Positions 6,129 to 56,392 of a stretch of 58,938 nt of DNA are shown one piece after another. The DNA comes from a virus. The notes beneath the pieces are model-generated. The model did no database searches, had not been told where the DNA came from, and saw only the letters and a list, made by a program, of their open reading frames with translations. Each line of letters begins with the position of its first letter. The stretch's first letter is position 1. Where the stretch lies: IMG/VR virus record IMGVR_UViG_3300030114_000013, positions 1 through 58,938 of that record, one strand, 5' to 3'. A program made the translations under genes and the position numbers.

Positions 6129-6330
6129 AGTCCTAATTTAAGTGTTCAGCGTTCGAATTCAGGATATTATAAAAAGGACTATTGAATTTTTATGTAAGTT
6201 AATACTAAATCACTGAAAGGTATTACTTGGTGGGAGTGCTTTTCAGAAAGTTCTAAGGGATTTATCTTAAAGTCCCTTTCCATAATCCCTAAAAGGGAAA
6301 TAAATTAAACAAAATTAGAGGAGAGATTTT
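6129..6330 (+). promoter_or_regulatory. Structured leader upstream of the HU-like gene
   Basis: The 242-base gap before the HU gene is dense in stems: AGTCCT (6129-6134) with AGGACT (6175-6180), CTGAAA with TTTCAG around 6213-6246, AAGGGA with TCCCTT around 6257-6280, and TCCCT/AGGGA around 6287-6299. A copy of the window motif (AAATAAATTAA, 6298-6308) leads into the AGAGGAG ribosome site. The segment GTTCGAATTC resembles a tRNA T-arm, but no tRNA can be built. It is likely a folded 5' leader, possibly regulating HU synthesis. Confidence 0.4.
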
Positions 6331-6333
6331 AAA

Positions 6334-6639
6334 ATGAAGAAAGAACAAGTAATTGAAGTAATTAAGGAAACATTAGGACTAGAAAGTAAGAAGGAAGCAG
6401 AAGGTAAACTTGCTGAATTTGACAAAGTGGTTAAAGCAGTAACAGAAAAATTAGAAGTAAAAGATAAAGCTAGAATTGGGTCATTTGTTGAAGTAGAAAA
6501 GAAGCACGTTGAAGCTAAACATTCAGATGCTAGAGTAGGAAGAAATCCTAAAACTGGAGAACCAATTCAAATAGAAGCTAAGGATACTCCAGCATATGAT
6601 AAAGTAACAATTAAAGGAACTAAGGGTTTAAATAAGTAA
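6334..6639 (+). CDS. HU/IHF-family DNA-binding protein
   Basis: A 101-residue protein with the HU layout: an N-terminal helical half rich in Lys and Glu (KKEQVIEVIKETLG) and then the family signature A-R-x-G-R-N-P-x-T-G-E-P-I-x-I at about residues 69-83, which forms the DNA-embracing arm. Proteins of this family bend and compact DNA as dimers. The helical part is more diverged than in host HU proteins. SPbeta also carries an HU homologue near its YonO polymerase gene, so a role in phage genome packaging or transcription is plausible. The gene is preceded by a folded leader and followed by a probable terminator. Confidence 0.88.
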   Translation: MKKEQVIEVIKETLGLESKKEAEGKLAEFDKVVKAVTEKLEVKDKARIGSFVEVEKKHVEAKHSDARVGRNPKTGEPIQIEAKDTPAYDKVTIKGTKGLNK

Positions 6640-8459: not shown

Positions 8460-9235
8460 AGGCATGTACTCATTGAGAGGTGACCTTAAAACAACTATTT
8501 TACGTTAATCGTCCGAGGGTAACGGGGATATAAATATTTAGAATATTATCCATATGCTTGTGATGGGAATTGCCTACATTAGTCTGAGCCATTAAATTTA
8601 TCGAAGTAGAGATGTGAAACCTACTCGATTCTAGAGTTAACTATGAAAAATCGGTGAGTTTCTACCTTAGTGGTTATTTTATCAAGATGTGGTCTCAGCA
8701 TGTAAAATCAGAGAAAGTTGTGATAATTTCAAACAACTATAAAAAGCTTTCAAGATGGGAAGTCGTGAAATGTGGGAAGGTTATAGCAAATAATATTAGG
8801 ATATAACCAAAGTAATTTTTCGGTGGATTAAAATTATATTATTTAGATGTTATCATAGCATACCAAAAACGAAATAGATAACAATGTGTATCTATTAAGC
8901 AATAAATTAAATGTCGCTTCAAGATTAGGTATTTAATTTGCTTTATAATGGTTTTATGTTTACCAAAACTTGAATAGGATTAACAATCTGAAAGAAAACA
9001 TATGATTTTGAAGATAGGCTTTACGCCAGTGATTTAATAATTAATTAGATAAAACTTGGTTTTCTAGAAACCAGTAGATACATTAAGTTCTATACATCTT
9101 ATATATGTATCATAAAATCTAATGTTTAATAGGGTATGAAAACCTAACAAAATGCTGAATTGAGTTTTGATGACTGAATTAATATAACATTAGACGTAAT
9201 ACAATCATAGCAGGTACGTTAAGCTTGCTTTTTAA
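8460..9235 (+). ncRNA. Large highly structured non-coding RNA candidate (ROOL/GOLLD-like class)
   Basis: Nearly 790 bases without a credible ORF separate 8451 from a tRNA, in a genome whose other gaps are mostly short. The block is packed with stems: TCGAAGTAG (8601-8609) with CTACTCGA (8621-8628); AGTTGT (8716-8721) with ACAACT (8733-8738); GGTTATA (8779-8785) with TATAACC (8802-8808); AATAGATA (8873-8880) with TATCTATT (8889-8896); AAGCAA..ATTAAAT (8897-8912) with ATTTAATTTGCTT (8931-8943); GATACAT (9077-9083) with ATGTATC (9105-9111); and a 9-bp closing stem TCTAATGTT (9118-9126) with AACATTAGA (9186-9194). Giant ornate phage RNAs (ROOL, GOLLD) are known to lie next to phage tRNA genes and have this size. 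Class membership is inferred from size, position and structure, not from a covariance model. Confidence 0.6.
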
Positions 9236-9238
9236 TAT

Positions 9239-9325
9239 GGGTGGATATGTCTAGTGGCGATGACAGCAGACTGTAAATCTGTTACGTAAGAAACAACGTA
9301 GGTTCGACTCCTACTTCACCCACCA
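9239..9325 (+). tRNA. tRNA-Tyr (GTA)
   Basis: A full cloverleaf of class II type. The acceptor GGGTGGA pairs with TTCACCC (one G-U pair); the anticodon arm GCAGA-CTGTAAA-TCTGT gives anticodon GTA; the variable arm is about 15 bases, as expected for bacterial tRNA-Tyr; the T arm is GTAGG-TTCGACT-CCTAC. The CCA end is encoded (9323-9325). It directly follows the structured RNA block, so both may be made as one transcript and separated by processing. Confidence 0.93.
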
Positions 9326-12463: not shown

Positions 12464-12931
12464 ATGATATGTAGTAATGATGGTAGAGTGAAATTCTATT
12501 TAGAATCTATATTTAATAAAATAGGTGAGACTATGATTGATGATTATTCAGATGTAATTTTGATTCAAGATGATTTAGTAGATTGTATAAACATGGACAA
12601 GTTTAATACCAATGATATACGTATATTTGTTGGAGATAAAGAATTGGATGAAGAAGAATGTAACCATGATTGTTCTAATTGTACATTACATGATGATGAC
12701 GAGGATTATGAAAAAGAACTCGAAGCTGAAGATTTAGGATTGGTTCTAACTGAGGAATTGTTAGACTCACTATCAGAAATTGATGCAAATGATGTTGAAT
12801 CTATAGTTGAAATGATTGCAAACAAAATAAATGAAGCTTTTGAAATTGGTTATAATGAGGCATTAGAAGACGCCGAAGATGAACTTCAAGATTCAATTGA
12901 TGCAATTAGGTCTTTAAGATTTGAAGAGTAA
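12464..12931 (+). CDS. 3' half of the TAA-split acidic protein
   Basis: The open frame runs directly on from TAA 12428-12430 in the same phase; the first ATG is at 12464 but no Shine-Dalgarno sequence precedes it. From that ATG it encodes 155 residues that are very acidic, with a cysteine/histidine cluster (CNHDCSNC) and a helical Asp/Glu-rich tail. Three explanations remain: a pseudogene remnant, a separate weakly translated gene, or readthrough. No function is recognised. A strong terminator follows at 12979. Confidence 0.55.
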   Translation: MICSNDGRVKFYLESIFNKIGETMIDDYSDVILIQDDLVDCINMDKFNTNDIRIFVGDKELDEEECNHDCSNCTLHDDDEDYEKELEAEDLGLVLTEELLDSLSEIDANDVESIVEMIANKINEAFEIGYNEALEDAEDELQDSIDAIRSLRFEE

Positions 12932-12978
12932 CAAATTAATATAATTAAAAAAACTTATAAAAGTAATGTTTTTAAAGG

Positions 12979-13007
12979 GACTGGATTGAAATATGTCCAG
13001 TCTTTTT
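12979..13007 (+). terminator. Intrinsic terminator
   Basis: GACTGGA (12979-12985) pairs perfectly with TCCAGTC... (12996-13002) and is followed by CTTTTTATT. It ends the left gene block and isolates the antirepressor leader that follows. Confidence 0.85.
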
Positions 13008-13030
13008 ATTATGCAGAAATTTAAAATTAG

Positions 13031-13161
13031 CAATATATAAACATACTATACTCCTGTATAGATTGGTTCTCCGTATGGAAGTGAAATTTATGTTTATATA
13101 TTGGTGATTTTAAATCATACGCTATGGGTATGCTGAACCTAAATCAGTAAAGGAGAACCAA
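13031..13161 (+). promoter_or_regulatory. Riboswitch-like leader of the AntA-type gene
   Basis: A perfect 15-bp stem, CAATATATAAACATA (13031-13045) with 13089-13103, encloses the hairpin CTATAC-TCCT-GTATAG (13046-13061) and the single-stranded element TTGGTTCTCC (13063-13072). That element is exactly complementary to GGAGAACCAA (13152-13161), which contains the ribosome site of the gene at 13165. Between them lies a second stem: GATTT/AAATC (13106-13110 with 13141-13145) and CATAC/GTATG (13116-13120 with 13128-13132). The leader can thus close a pseudoknot that hides the ribosome site. The pairings are seen; control of translation is inferred. No sigma-A promoter was found between the terminator and the stem. 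Confidence 0.65.
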
Positions 13162-13164
13162 ATT

Positions 13165-13974
13165 ATGAAAACAATACAAATTAACAAGGTGAAGGTAATA
13201 ATATTTGAGGAAGCTGAACTAAAAGAAAAATTAGGAATGAGTAGAGAAAATATTAGTTCAATTTTAGAATATCAAAGAATATTCCCCGAATTATTACAAG
13301 ATGACATTGAAGGATTTATTATTGACGCTAGAAAATTACATAATCAATTAAAATTACAAAAGGATTTTTCGGATTGGATTAAAATACAAATAAAAAATTT
13401 AGATTTAGAAGAAGAAAAATCATATACCACTTTAAAGGGGAATTGCACAACCATGCGACCTAACGCAAGTATAGAATATTATTTGACTTTAGATTGTGCA
13501 AAAGATATATGTATGACTGTTGGTTCTTCTAATAGAACCAATAAAGAAACAAAAGACATATCTAAGATGGTAAGAAATTATTTTAAAGTGATGGAAAAGA
13601 CTTTGAGAAACTATGAAAAATGGCAAGCAACGAGAGAGCCTGAAAAAGATGGAGCTAATGTCATGAGAAGTCATATTGCAAATTGGTGTGATAGAAATGG
13701 ATACGATAAAACATTGAAGAAGTTTTATACTAGAGAATTTAATTTATTAAATGAAAGTTTAGTCGGTTTAGATGCACAAGGTATTAGGTGTGAAATTGGA
13801 TATAAAGATAAACAAACAAGAGAACACTTGTTAGAATTAGAAAATAGTGCTTTAGCTTTTCTTCAAGATTTAAATATTAGTCTATTAGATGCTGATATGA
13901 GTTTTGAAGATAGAAGTAATATTATAAAAATAACTTGTGATACTAAATATTCTAAGTTAAAAAGAGTTGGATAA
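13165..13974 (+). CDS. Phage antirepressor, AntA/AntB-domain protein
   Basis: A 269-residue protein. Residues about 50-115 read IDARKLHNQL...KDFSDWIKIQI...EEEKSYTTL, then a segment with TLDCAKDICMTVG...ARNYF-like spacing (KMVRNYFKVMEK). This is the typical layout of the AntA/AntB family, in which the domain sits at the front of phage antirepressors that inactivate a lysogeny repressor. The first 45 residues are an extra helical part. The C-terminal 100 residues are helical and not recognised. Its ribosome site lies inside the folded leader at 13031-13161, so synthesis is probably controlled at translation. A second antirepressor-type gene with a similar leader is at 27685. Confidence 0.75.
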   Translation: MKTIQINKVKVIIFEEAELKEKLGMSRENISSILEYQRIFPELLQDDIEGFIIDARKLHNQLKLQKDFSDWIKIQIKNLDLEEEKSYTTLKGNCTTMRPNASIEYYLTLDCAKDICMTVGSSNRTNKETKDISKMVRNYFKVMEKTLRNYEKWQATREPEKDGANVMRSHIANWCDRNGYDKTLKKFYTREFNLLNESLVGLDAQGIRCEIGYKDKQTREHLLELENSALAFLQDLNISLLDADMSFEDRSNIIKITCDTKYSKLKRVG

Positions 13975-48800: not shown

Positions 48801-49079
48801 GTTACAACTAAATTAAATAATATATTTATAACTCAAACATTAGGCGAATTAAAAGTAGGAGATAAGATAAAGGAATGTTTTTCAACTTATGCAGATGAGA
48901 ATATAGAATTTATAATAGTTAATAAAAATGAAAATATGGTTACATTGATGACAAATATAATATCTATAAAACCATTTGATGTAGCCGAAAGTGTTTTAGT
49001 AAATGGTGATGCTATTTGGAATGATAGTAATATAAAACAATGGCTAAATAGTAATGATATATTAGTTAGGAGAAAATAA
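45900..49079 (+). CDS. Large baseplate/tail-fibre protein with Ig-type domains
   Basis: A 1059-residue protein starting at GTG 45900 behind AAAGGAGG. The body contains several beta-sandwich modules of fibronectin/Ig style (WDSLSYNIHTITIKVIDSFGNIVSR; WSSITYGTHTLKIIIVDSNGYTYTK; EYQVKIRTYNDSNQYSAWSNI) and a concanavalin-like stretch in the middle. The last 120 residues (GERVVFNLPLGTRC...AIWNDSNIKQWLNSN) resemble small C-terminal domains of Firmicute surface proteins (DUF6273-like). It likely builds the side or tip of the baseplate and binds the cell surface. Confidence 0.6.
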   Translation: MAITEKIGTLYMNGVKVKFTGDTRTQYILNAPLEIRNKDTDSDYTIEFLRFSNGVKQYLVSTNVLLTNISYDDLSKQGLVSGQVISIDGQKYKIRLMSAGTTTRINGDNYSKANPTTNEWDTYLLNEIGLSTTPTPNGQDLSGSYTNETIITSITNNIWHWNKIGSLSSSKVGYDVTVRGNLSASYFSTINQFARSSTVGWRLWLEIYNEPSTISGQDKYLNSYTSSFKQPYIIYDGDADLMNIEEYVDNTLIRKLENETTGFNSSVDLSSVWDSLSYNIHTITIKVIDSFGNIVSRIYSFNKIQIISGESTSLTKPLIVTTNNSGILEPINALVENSIPFRVVGGDICYFNEVNISTNDSDQTVVYNRKLESFDFESPILKNSLINGKEYQVKIRTYNDSNQYSAWSNICLIKTFSPANIIINGIINGQITTQNPLITASFSQSDTYLNNGTSVTTSDTLYSYQFYLIKDGQTITESPVLTDGLLQYQFSSLENKTNYIIKLITLTNGNVQTITEESFYCLYQQSRMTALFEVKPEKSTGSVVLNVYAKQIRGRIEYGEIQFIDGEWCSLHDGTIIFDDQSPFKVENDFTMKIWARDLEDSNVMLLKLSNEVGYIELTRYGNMFWISKWVQGVKLYTKYSLISGDIHSEDEFFFYIQHIADTGLMNFEVTRITNGTTTWYTKQTDNDLPPSIANTTYNSYDKEDGFLTNLSDGLKSLIIPVSVDGVNTKVYLPSKDDLIGNNAYTLFKYIRPNEDINYEETRSVLGEYVLGTTLLSSESDNSNLSVRVKNNYIGSNPLNIKYKLLNYSNSSIDIYEKIDDITFNIRKNIYKPTDLANEYIIDLTPLWSSITYGTHTLKIIIVDSNGYTYTKELTFGKASSKIGILTQSAIDKNTDNALALTKEQPYKYYTRTVDSTDGNKLNIINSDDTIASEYPNAMNIGERVVFNLPLGTRCTTYKDPIDNCYTVTTKLNNIFITQTLGELKVGDKIKECFSTYADENIEFIIVNKNENMVTLMTNIISIKPFDVAESVLVNGDAIWNDSNIKQWLNSNDILVRRK

Positions 49080-49097
49080 TCTCTCCTAACTTTTTTG
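49066..49097 (+). terminator. Terminator overlapping the fibre gene's end
   Basis: GTTAGGAGA (49066-49074) pairs with TCTCCTAAC (49083-49091), followed by TTTTTT. The stem begins inside the last codons of the gene. Confidence 0.8.
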
Positions 49098-49131
49098 TTG
49101 TGCAAATTAATAAAAAGAGGAGAGATTATTT

Positions 49132-50652
49132 ATGGCAACCACAGAGTATTTTAATAATACTAATTATAAAAATTATACTAAATTTACTCAAGAAAATAAT
49201 CTGACATTAGATGATGACATAATTGTAGTACAAGATATAAGTGCTGAAGATATGATTAAAATGGATAGACTAGAGTTTTTGAGTAAGAAAATATACCCAA
49301 CCGAAGCAGAGAAATCAGAAATGACTCAACTTAAAGTTGATTTGATAACTTATATGCCAACTGCTAATACAATAAATAAAATAGGTGGTATGTTATATGG
49401 AATGCAAGTCTACTTAAAAGAAGGAGTAGTAATATTTATTAATCAACAAAAGCAAGAATTAATAGATATAGTAAATAACCACAAATATATGGGTATATAT
49501 GTACCTTTGACTAATTATGCACAAGGTAATATGGTAATGTTTGATGGATATGGATTCATAAGTAAGGTCAATGAAAACATAGGACATACTCCAAATAAAG
49601 AAGCAATAGATGATGGATATTGGATTCGTTTTACTATAAAAGGAGAAAAAGGAGACCCATCTTTAAACATATATATCAAAAAAGGTGCTGACGGTAGTGG
49701 AAATTTTGATAATACAATTACATATAACACTGGAGATGCTTGTATATATGACCATAGATTATATTATTGTATAAAAGATAGCACAGTAGGAATAAACCCA
49801 ACAGATACTACAAAATGGGCTTTTGGAGAAAAAATATGGATAGGGACTAACGCCCCGATTGACCATAGTGTTATATGGTGGGATACTACTATTGGTCAAA
49901 ACGTATTTAAAAGATATTCTGATAATAATATATGGGTGGGGCAAAATGTAAAAGCAACTGACGTAACTATTACAGATAGTGGAAATTATTTTACAATAAA
50001 AACTACCGAAGGTGCATTAGCTCAAATGGGTTTAAAGCTAAGTTATTTTACAGAAGTTAGTGGAAAATTATACTATAAAGGAAGTAAGGTAGGTGCAACT
50101 GTTGCAAGTGAAATATCATTACCTGCAATAAGTGGTCTAACAAGTGATACGAATATATATGATGGAATGCAAAAGCTTTTTACACTTGCCAATAACGGGA
50201 AAACAAGTATTGCTGGAGTTGTTGGCAATGTAACTGGCAGTAATACACATACAGAAATAGCTAATGAAGTTCAAGTAGATAAGAATATATTAGTTAGTAA
50301 TTTGAATAACAAAGGAATTATTGTAAGCAGTAGTGATACTTTAAGGAATTTATCAAATGCAGTAAGTAACATAACATTATCAAGTATGGGTGGAACAAAT
50401 TATGCAACCGGTCAAATTTCACATGTATACGGAACAACAGATACAGTTAATTTTCCTTTTACTGCTAGTGTTGTCAGGCTTGTGGAAAATAGTTCACCTG
50501 CTTTATCATATATATGTGTACCTGGTATGAGTAATAATTTTTATATGCACATGACAAATTCGTCATTTACACAATATACAAGTAATGGTTCATCTATTGC
50601 AATACAGTCACTTGTCGGTACTGGAACATTCACATACTATGCGTATAAATAA
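49132..50652 (+). CDS. Tail fibre or receptor-binding protein with carbohydrate-binding modules
   Basis: A 506-residue protein with an AGAGGAGAG site. Two short modules of the chitin/cellulose-binding type 5/12 style appear (YVPLTNYAQGNMVMFDGYGFISKVNENIG and TITYNTGDACIYDHRLYYCIKDS), each with the strand-aromatic pattern of such modules. A collagen-like GEKGDPS joins them. Its C-terminal part (TNGKTSIAGVVGNVTGS-like and SSSDTLRNLSNAVSNI) recalls trimeric clostridial phage fibre tips. It probably recognises wall polysaccharide. Confidence 0.65.
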   Translation: MATTEYFNNTNYKNYTKFTQENNLTLDDDIIVVQDISAEDMIKMDRLEFLSKKIYPTEAEKSEMTQLKVDLITYMPTANTINKIGGMLYGMQVYLKEGVVIFINQQKQELIDIVNNHKYMGIYVPLTNYAQGNMVMFDGYGFISKVNENIGHTPNKEAIDDGYWIRFTIKGEKGDPSLNIYIKKGADGSGNFDNTITYNTGDACIYDHRLYYCIKDSTVGINPTDTTKWAFGEKIWIGTNAPIDHSVIWWDTTIGQNVFKRYSDNNIWVGQNVKATDVTITDSGNYFTIKTTEGALAQMGLKLSYFTEVSGKLYYKGSKVGATVASEISLPAISGLTSDTNIYDGMQKLFTLANNGKTSIAGVVGNVTGSNTHTEIANEVQVDKNILVSNLNNKGIIVSSSDTLRNLSNAVSNITLSSMGGTNYATGQISHVYGTTDTVNFPFTASVVRLVENSSPALSYICVPGMSNNFYMHMTNSSFTQYTSNGSSIAIQSLVGTGTFTYYAYK

Positions 50653-55913: not shown

Positions 55914-55946
55914 AAAGGCTTAGGGATATTCTCTAGGTCTTTTTGT
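55914..55946 (+). terminator. Imperfect terminator after the endolysin gene
   Basis: AAAGGCTTAGGGA pairs imperfectly with TCTCTAGGTCTTT, followed by TTG. Further hairpins (TCATGC/GCATGA and ATAATAAAA/TTTTATTAT) lie in the 214-base gap up to 56105, which holds no ORF. Confidence 0.6.
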
Positions 55947-56104
55947 TATGTAATTATACTCTACGAGGTTTTCATGCTTACGCATGATTTATTATTTCAA
56001 ATCAAAGATTTTCATAATAAAAATTGATTTTATTATCTTAATGGTATTCATCTATAAGGTGAACAACTAAAAATAATAAAATATAAAAAGGAGTGTATTA
56101 AATT

Positions 56105-56392
56105 ATGAAAACAGTGTTTAGTTATAAGGACTTAGGATTAGCTTCCTATATTATCACCAATGGAAATGGATTCAAAGGAATAGAAATAAAGTATTCAAAA
56201 AGATTTAATGAATTCAAAATATACGTTCAAGTAGAAGGTGAAAAAGAACAGTTAATTAAAATGAAAAACTATTATGAAGAAAATAAAATAATGATAAATA
56301 AAACTAAAACAATACAAGACATGATTGTAGTCCTATCGGACAGAGTTGAAAGAATTCTGAAGAATGAAGAAGACAACAGTACTGAAAGTTAG
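56105..56392 (+). CDS. Small conserved-type protein, DUF5659-like
   Basis: A 95-residue protein: FSYKDLGLASYIITNG-type start, strand FNEFKIYVQVEGEKEQL, then a helix and a short acidic tail. The start (D-x-x-LASYIIT-x-G) resembles DUF5659, like the protein at 1587, though it is longer. An AAGGAGTG site precedes the ATG. It is the first gene of the right-hand block and followed by a hairpin at 56432. The function is unknown. Confidence 0.6.
   Translation: MKTVFSYKDLGLASYIITNGNGFKGIEIKYSKRFNEFKIYVQVEGEKEQLIKMKNYYEENKIMINKTKTIQDMIVVLSDRVERILKNEEDNSTES

Follow-up and report, generated by a model that had tools for sequence, protein, structure and literature searches.

Upstream of a predicted antirepressor gene in the window, by which we mean the whole 58,938-nucleotide stretch of viral DNA that was analysed, lies, at 13020–13161, a structured leader that is probably a previously undescribed C4-like antisense RNA and that, judged from its sequence and its relatives, would block translation of phage lysis–lysogeny genes. 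In the mechanism that we propose, a long stem (P1) would close a three-way junction holding two hairpins, P2 and P3; P3 would present a 10-base anti-SD element to the ribosome site (SD) of the AntA antirepressor gene, the resulting anti-SD:SD pairing would block translation of the antirepressor, and that block would keep the phage in lysogeny or commit it to lysogeny. The leader is very probably a real brake, because diverged relatives keep the match between anti-SD and ribosome site despite changed letters. A search of the open-access literature turned up no description of an RNA of this kind for Clostridia phages.

The gene behind the leader encodes an AntA domain (PF08346, E 7.8e-18, 65.3 bits against a curated cut-off of 27) and matches the PHROG family of the anti-repressor Ant (E 2.4e-19). 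Its product may thus be taken as a putative antirepressor, one that probably switches off dormancy. The terminase of the phage is of the SPbeta type, with 67% identity to that of Bacillus phage SPR, and the source record is 58.9 kb long.

Architecture of the leader

Three elements described in an earlier note on this DNA, namely a perfect 15-bp closing stem, an inner hairpin, and a 10-base element exactly complementary to the ribosome site, are all present where that note had placed them (Table 1). A G·G mismatch separates the 15-bp P1 from its 10-bp outer extension. Taken as a whole, the 157-nt leader folds at −36.8 kcal/mol, against a shuffle mean of −23.9 (z −4.05), and beats all 200 of 200 dinucleotide shuffles. 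The P3 hairpin of the window is short, with 4 bp, which we counted against the C4-like reading. A further two-part stem that had been placed in between (TGATTT..AAATCA plus CATAC..GTATG) fared less well: the window sequence allows it, but its outer half is in competition with the extension of the closing stem and is not conserved in the relative L007. In this part of the leader, the 6-bp hairpin P4 is better supported.

A 10-nt complement to the ribosome site was reached by 6 of 5000 dinucleotide shuffles. As a control, the genes of the window were each compared with their own ribosome site, and one other among the 41, a tail-fibre gene, also has a complement of at least 10 nt; the single anti-SD match is therefore by itself only moderately surprising, and conservation must carry the claim.

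Table 1. Elements of the leader, its upstream neighbour, and the gene that follows, in window coordinates
Feature	Positions	Strand	Remarks
Terminator-like hairpin GACTGGA..TCCAGTC, then TTTTT	12975–13010	+	From sequence; directly 5′ of the leader
Closing stem, outer part, 5′ strand	13020–13029	+	10 bp with 13105–13114
Closing stem P1, inner part, 5′ strand	13031–13045	+	Perfect 15 bp with 13089–13103; compensatory changes in relatives
Hairpin P2, CTATAC-TCCT-GTATAG	13046–13061	+	Arms 13046–13051 and 13056–13061; directly stacked on P1
Anti-SD element TTGGTTCTCC	13063–13072	+	Exact complement of 13152–13161; equivalent of C4 b′
Hairpin P3, TTCT-CCGTAT-GGAA	13067–13080	+	Read from sequence; anti-SD located in 5′ arm and loop; 3′ arm SD-like
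Closing stem P1, 3′ strand	13089–13103	+	Partner of 13031–13045
Closing stem, outer part, 3′ strand	13105–13114	+	Partner of 13020–13029
Hairpin P4, TGCTGA-ACCTAAA-TCAGTA	13131–13149	+	6 bp, 13131–13136 with 13144–13149; directly 5′ of the SD
Ribosome site (target element) GGAGAACCAA	13152–13161	+	Exact complement of 13063–13072; serves the ATG at 13165
Antirepressor gene, AntA domain	13165–13974	+	269 aa; Pfam AntA PF08346; PHROG 5817

Relatives of the leader

Viral contigs searched by pattern and by protein yielded L007, L066, L189, and an identical copy (L004/L023); protein identity to the window antirepressor is 52% for L007, 47% for L066, which was retrieved by the protein search only, and 45% for L189. 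When Clostridia genomes were searched by protein, we obtained G363, a prophage AntA gene with an analogous leader that has an 18-bp closing stem and a perfect 10-bp match (CTCCTACAGC/GCTGTAGGAG) at the same 89-nt distance, and that folds as a rod. We then built a covariance model, R1, on the closed domain of three sequences with the ribosome site left out; applied to 206 genomes from the G363 family, this model retrieved L294 and L306 from one genome and L295 from another. A further model (R2) added L308 from genomes of that family, and an R3 search of a 346-genome sample of the whole class found no further members. The related set comprises seven sequences, the window and six diverged relatives, a small number that we also counted against the C4-like reading.

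The genes that follow are of several kinds. The L294 leader precedes a short and seemingly truncated ORF that starts MNKFTKGFLTN, similar to the beginning of the G363 antirepressor. L308 and L306 precede mutually related phage genes that are not AntA (148 and 162 aa), and in the L308 genome the operon runs on to a Bro-N antirepressor. L295 (L311:3201-3299, G870:C136) is a copy of the RNA on a chromosome contig, between spo0A and an opposing ndk, with no sense gene downstream; it may be a host-kept RNA or a remnant. When the genome that carries L295 was searched for targets of this copy (GGGAACAAA..ATG), 9 matches came up, as compared to 7 in the control.

Most other AntA genes have no such leader at their RBS. 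Comparison with phages by blastn gave no match, a TGCTGAACCTWAATC motif scan of viral contigs contained no further leaders among the matches listed, and a scan of 84,980 genomes with a relaxed pattern gave 35 stretches, all of which were dismissed as chance on inspection. The leaders of L189 and G817 are long and structured but of another design, with weak anti-RBS loops, and were not counted as members. That design, shared by L189:2780-3010 and L265 (G817), has a 5′ hairpin whose loop is weakly complementary to the ribosome site, together with two long stems (9/18 bp and 14/18 bp) that exclude each other. L204, L232, and L255-L261 were likewise rejected as instances of the same leader, as they have a local SD-hiding hairpin of 10–12 bp after unrelated upstream sequence; these are AntA-like genes from many genomes, with a shared inverted repeat (ATTACCTCCTGT..ACAGGAGGTAAT) that looks as though it might be the 5′ end of a mobile element.

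Covariation and the anti-SD:SD match

Covariation in related phages had been named in the earlier note as a check on the leader, and stem pairing is indeed kept with compensatory changes: 15 of the 31 pairs in the seven-sequence alignment are changed on both sides. This alignment leans toward the structure because it was fitted to the model; within it, 90.8% of cells are paired, slid registers pair 33–49%, and none of 500 shuffles reached any of its measures. An earlier alignment of three sequences, made without the structure, has six pairs changed on both sides as compared to 2.1 in shuffles. By element, helix 1, to which the outer part of the closing stem belongs, has 7 of its 15 pairs changed on both sides among the seven relatives, and P2 is paired in five of the seven, with few sequence changes, being formed differently in L066 and L308. 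The model scores 97.7 bits on the strand of the gene and 40.9 bits on the other, a difference large enough that we take the RNA to be the sense strand. The junction bases GAUU and GAAA are conserved (alignment A11); few unpaired bases are conserved, and the anti-SD sequences are freely exchanged.

Five gene-linked relatives have an anti-SD:SD match of 8–12 bp, four of them with letters unlike those of the window, and the anti-SD sits at the same place in the alignment, each fitting its own SD. The window and L007 share the anti-SD TTGGTTCTCC. L066, whose closing stem carries compensating changes, pairs TTGACCTCTT with AAGAGGTCAA over 10 bp; relative to the window, 7 of these 10 pairs are changed on both sides, which argues that the pairing is selected and upholds the proposal in the earlier note of a structured leader able to hide the ribosome site of the antirepressor. 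The match is TAGTCCTCCA/TGGAGGACTA in L294 and TTAGTCCTCTTT/AAAGAGGACTAA, 12 bp long, in L308, while the anti-SD of L306, TGTTCTCC, has an 8-nt match; all three were found with closed-domain models containing no SD. When their domains were shuffled 5000 times, the match was reached once for L294, never for L308, and 392 times for L306, so that the L306 match alone is not significant. The anti-SD-to-SD spacing is 82–90 nt across the six gene-linked members, 88–90 in five and 82 in L306.

The arms of P3, as read from the sequence, are TTCT/GGAA in the window, TTCTC/GAGAA in L007, ACCTC/GAGGT in L066, CTCCA/TGGAG in L294, TTCTCC/GGGGAA in L306, and CTCCT/AGGAG in G363. Every gene-linked relative, like phage P1, has a hairpin of 4–6 bp that ends at most 8 nt from the target; individually, such hairpins are not rare in shuffles (0.05–0.72). 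Pairing energies were derived from accessibility, as plain cofolding cannot represent pairing between a loop and the SD. Cognate pairing came to −10.7 to −11.4 kcal/mol for the window and L007, −11.0 for L066, and −7.6 for G363, and pairs of domain and target from unlike phages to between −3.3 and +6.1 kcal/mol; the window and L007, with their common anti-SD, cross-pair.

Surroundings of the leader

Ten bases separate the closing stem from the end of the upstream terminator-like hairpin, at about 13010. Hairpins of a similar kind are found in front of the leaders of L007, L066, L189, and G817. A promoter scan in front of the leader found none. A TTATTATGTA-like sequence occurs at 10 sites in the window, 8 of them intergenic, as compared to 2.9 expected from shuffles; these sites include 13006, 28903, 44899, 50985, 54326, and 55943, and often lie directly after a terminator-like hairpin. 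The sequence is possibly a promoter for a phage polymerase. Since the late cluster of SPbeta is transcribed by a phage-encoded polymerase, YonO (PMC8270828), transcription might begin at a phage-specific site immediately 5′ of the leader.

With Rfam, at gathering and at permissive thresholds, we recovered only a drum RNA (RF02958, 54.7 bits, 8897–9006) and a tRNA gene (9239–9322), both elsewhere in the window, a few kb upstream of the leader; microRNA and other Rfam matches at 13021–13115 had low scores, matched a long stem, and were rejected. Elsewhere, the tail-fibre gene (49132) has an 11-nt complement to its ribosome site, ATAATCTCTCC, in an upstream terminator-like hairpin (region 49064–49132), which could be either chance or a second control site. 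Two intergenic leaders of about 150 nt, 6187–6345 and 55943–56115, also have folds that beat shuffles (z −3.6 and −2.5).

Comparison with C4 and other antisense RNAs

C4 controls the antirepressor of phage P1 (phage P1 annotation; PMC5320573; PMC12197685), and the listing for its Rfam model, RF01695, names Proteobacteria and phages (PMC2864571). As a yardstick, we folded the annotated phage P1 C4 RNA, which scores 68.8 bits with the Rfam model. Its fold has a long closing stem, a P2 with a UUCG loop stacked on that stem, and a P3 with TCACTAAC, complementary to target b2; target a2 lies just 3′ of the RNA, and a hairpin lies directly before b2. The leader follows the same plan: a long closing stem P1, a stacked P2 with a 4-nt loop, and a P3 meet in a three-way junction, and a linker and hairpin P4 then lead to the target. 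Its P3 was found to hold the complement of the ribosome-site region of the downstream gene. As for C4 of P1 and P7, domain and target are on one strand, with the domain just upstream, and would share one transcript; as for C4 of P1, the controlled gene would be an antirepressor, and a hairpin lies directly before the target.

The leader differs from C4 in its AT-rich, unrelated sequence, in its occurrence with Clostridia phages, and in that its anti-SD extends over the SD itself and is partly contained in the P3 stem. RF01695 has no match in 12900–13300, even at E 10, and none at its gathering score in the whole window or in 20 related loci. Manual comparison for the second antisense element of C4, a′, gave only matches of 4–5 nt in some members, which were inconsistent. 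As to the RNase P motif, no member has the 5′ GG of P1 (the closing stem of the window starts UUUAAAAUUAG), and no RNase P ends of the GG/CCA type were seen in the leader. With no Rfam match, no consistent a′ element, and no RNase P motif, we do not file the leader as C4; its mode of working would be that of C4.

The sar RNA of phage P22 arises within the ant leader but from the opposite strand, whereas the antisense domain described here is on the same strand as its target and upstream of it. The two are alike in that sar, a small antisense RNA, prevents an antirepressor from being translated (PMC12197685), as we predict from sequence for the leader. The gene-less L295, a separate copy, recalls the freestanding Group 1 C4-like sRNAs of Acinetobacter baumannii, which, unlike L295, match Rfam C4 and have RNA-seq support (PMC5320573).

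Mode of action and alternative readings

We infer that anti-SD:SD pairing represses translation, and that the RNA may be released and act at least partly in trans, which would give immunity of the C4 type. The C4 plan, a specificity that can be exchanged, and the gene-less copy speak for action in trans; the near-constant distance, and the adjacency of domain and target in six of the seven, speak for action in cis, and a cis pseudoknot would repress equally well. Translational riboswitches commonly pair a closed domain with the SD as a pseudoknot, and preQ1 and SAM-II riboswitches have pseudoknots that contain the SD. The earlier note had read the leader as a switch sensing a ligand, a protein, or temperature. 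In a switch that acts in cis, the anti-SD:SD pseudoknot within its own mRNA would be opened or closed by a metabolite, a protein, or a change of temperature. The closed-domain anti-SD that pairs with the SD, as in preQ1 and SAM-II, would suit such a switch, as would its near-constant distance to the SD and the strong fold of the leader, and P3, in which the anti-SD meets an SD-like arm, could serve as its other state. At the junction, the conserved bases GAUU and GAAA are what a ligand or protein site would look like, and on their account we keep this reading, unlikely as we think it. It is not our first choice: unlike preQ1 and SAM-II, the leader has no family match, with no Rfam 15 riboswitch family among its hits, and no strongly conserved ligand pocket; few of its unpaired bases are conserved, its anti-SDs are interchangeable and swapped freely, its topology is that of C4, and the scaffold stands before genes of different families and once before none.

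A leader that only lowered translation constitutively, with a domain that has no regulated state, would be strong enough, given a cis helix of about −15 kcal/mol and an opening cost of about 3.5 kcal/mol. Yet a three-stem domain with an SD-mimicking P3 arm, kept over strong divergence, exceeds what plain attenuation needs, for which a local hairpin could suffice (as in G924, CCCTCC/GGGGGG), and we hold this to be very unlikely. The near-perfect inverted repeat of about 95 bp and the intergenic chromosomal copy L295, without a sense gene, would also fit a MITE-like mobile DNA element that landed upstream of several genes, an origin that we consider extremely improbable: the element is in sense orientation to the gene, its anti-SD fits the SD of that gene in six of the seven, covariation is strongest on the strand of the gene, a non-systematic look saw no flanking duplication, and none of the 206 genomes from the G363 family was found to have many near-identical copies in either orientation. 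Chance folding of AT-rich sequence could appeal to the one other window gene, of 41, with a complement of at least 10 nt to its ribosome site, but it is already contradicted by the covariation and by a match repeatedly kept with different letters, and we give it a minimal chance.

Implications

Beyond the C4-like antisense leader itself, we put forward tentatively, with more doubt than confidence, that these sequences form a family of trans-acting immunity RNAs that belongs to Clostridia phages and is independent of C4. The exchangeable anti-SD would define the immunity group, the module would have been re-fitted to various lysis–lysogeny genes, and L295 would be a host-kept member. If the C4-like reading is true, Clostridia phages would have an RNA of unrelated sequence on the C4 plan, and this guard over lysis and lysogeny would be far wider than the Rfam model shows. 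It would also supply a testable rule, in that immunity between phages should be predictable from the 10-base anti-SD.
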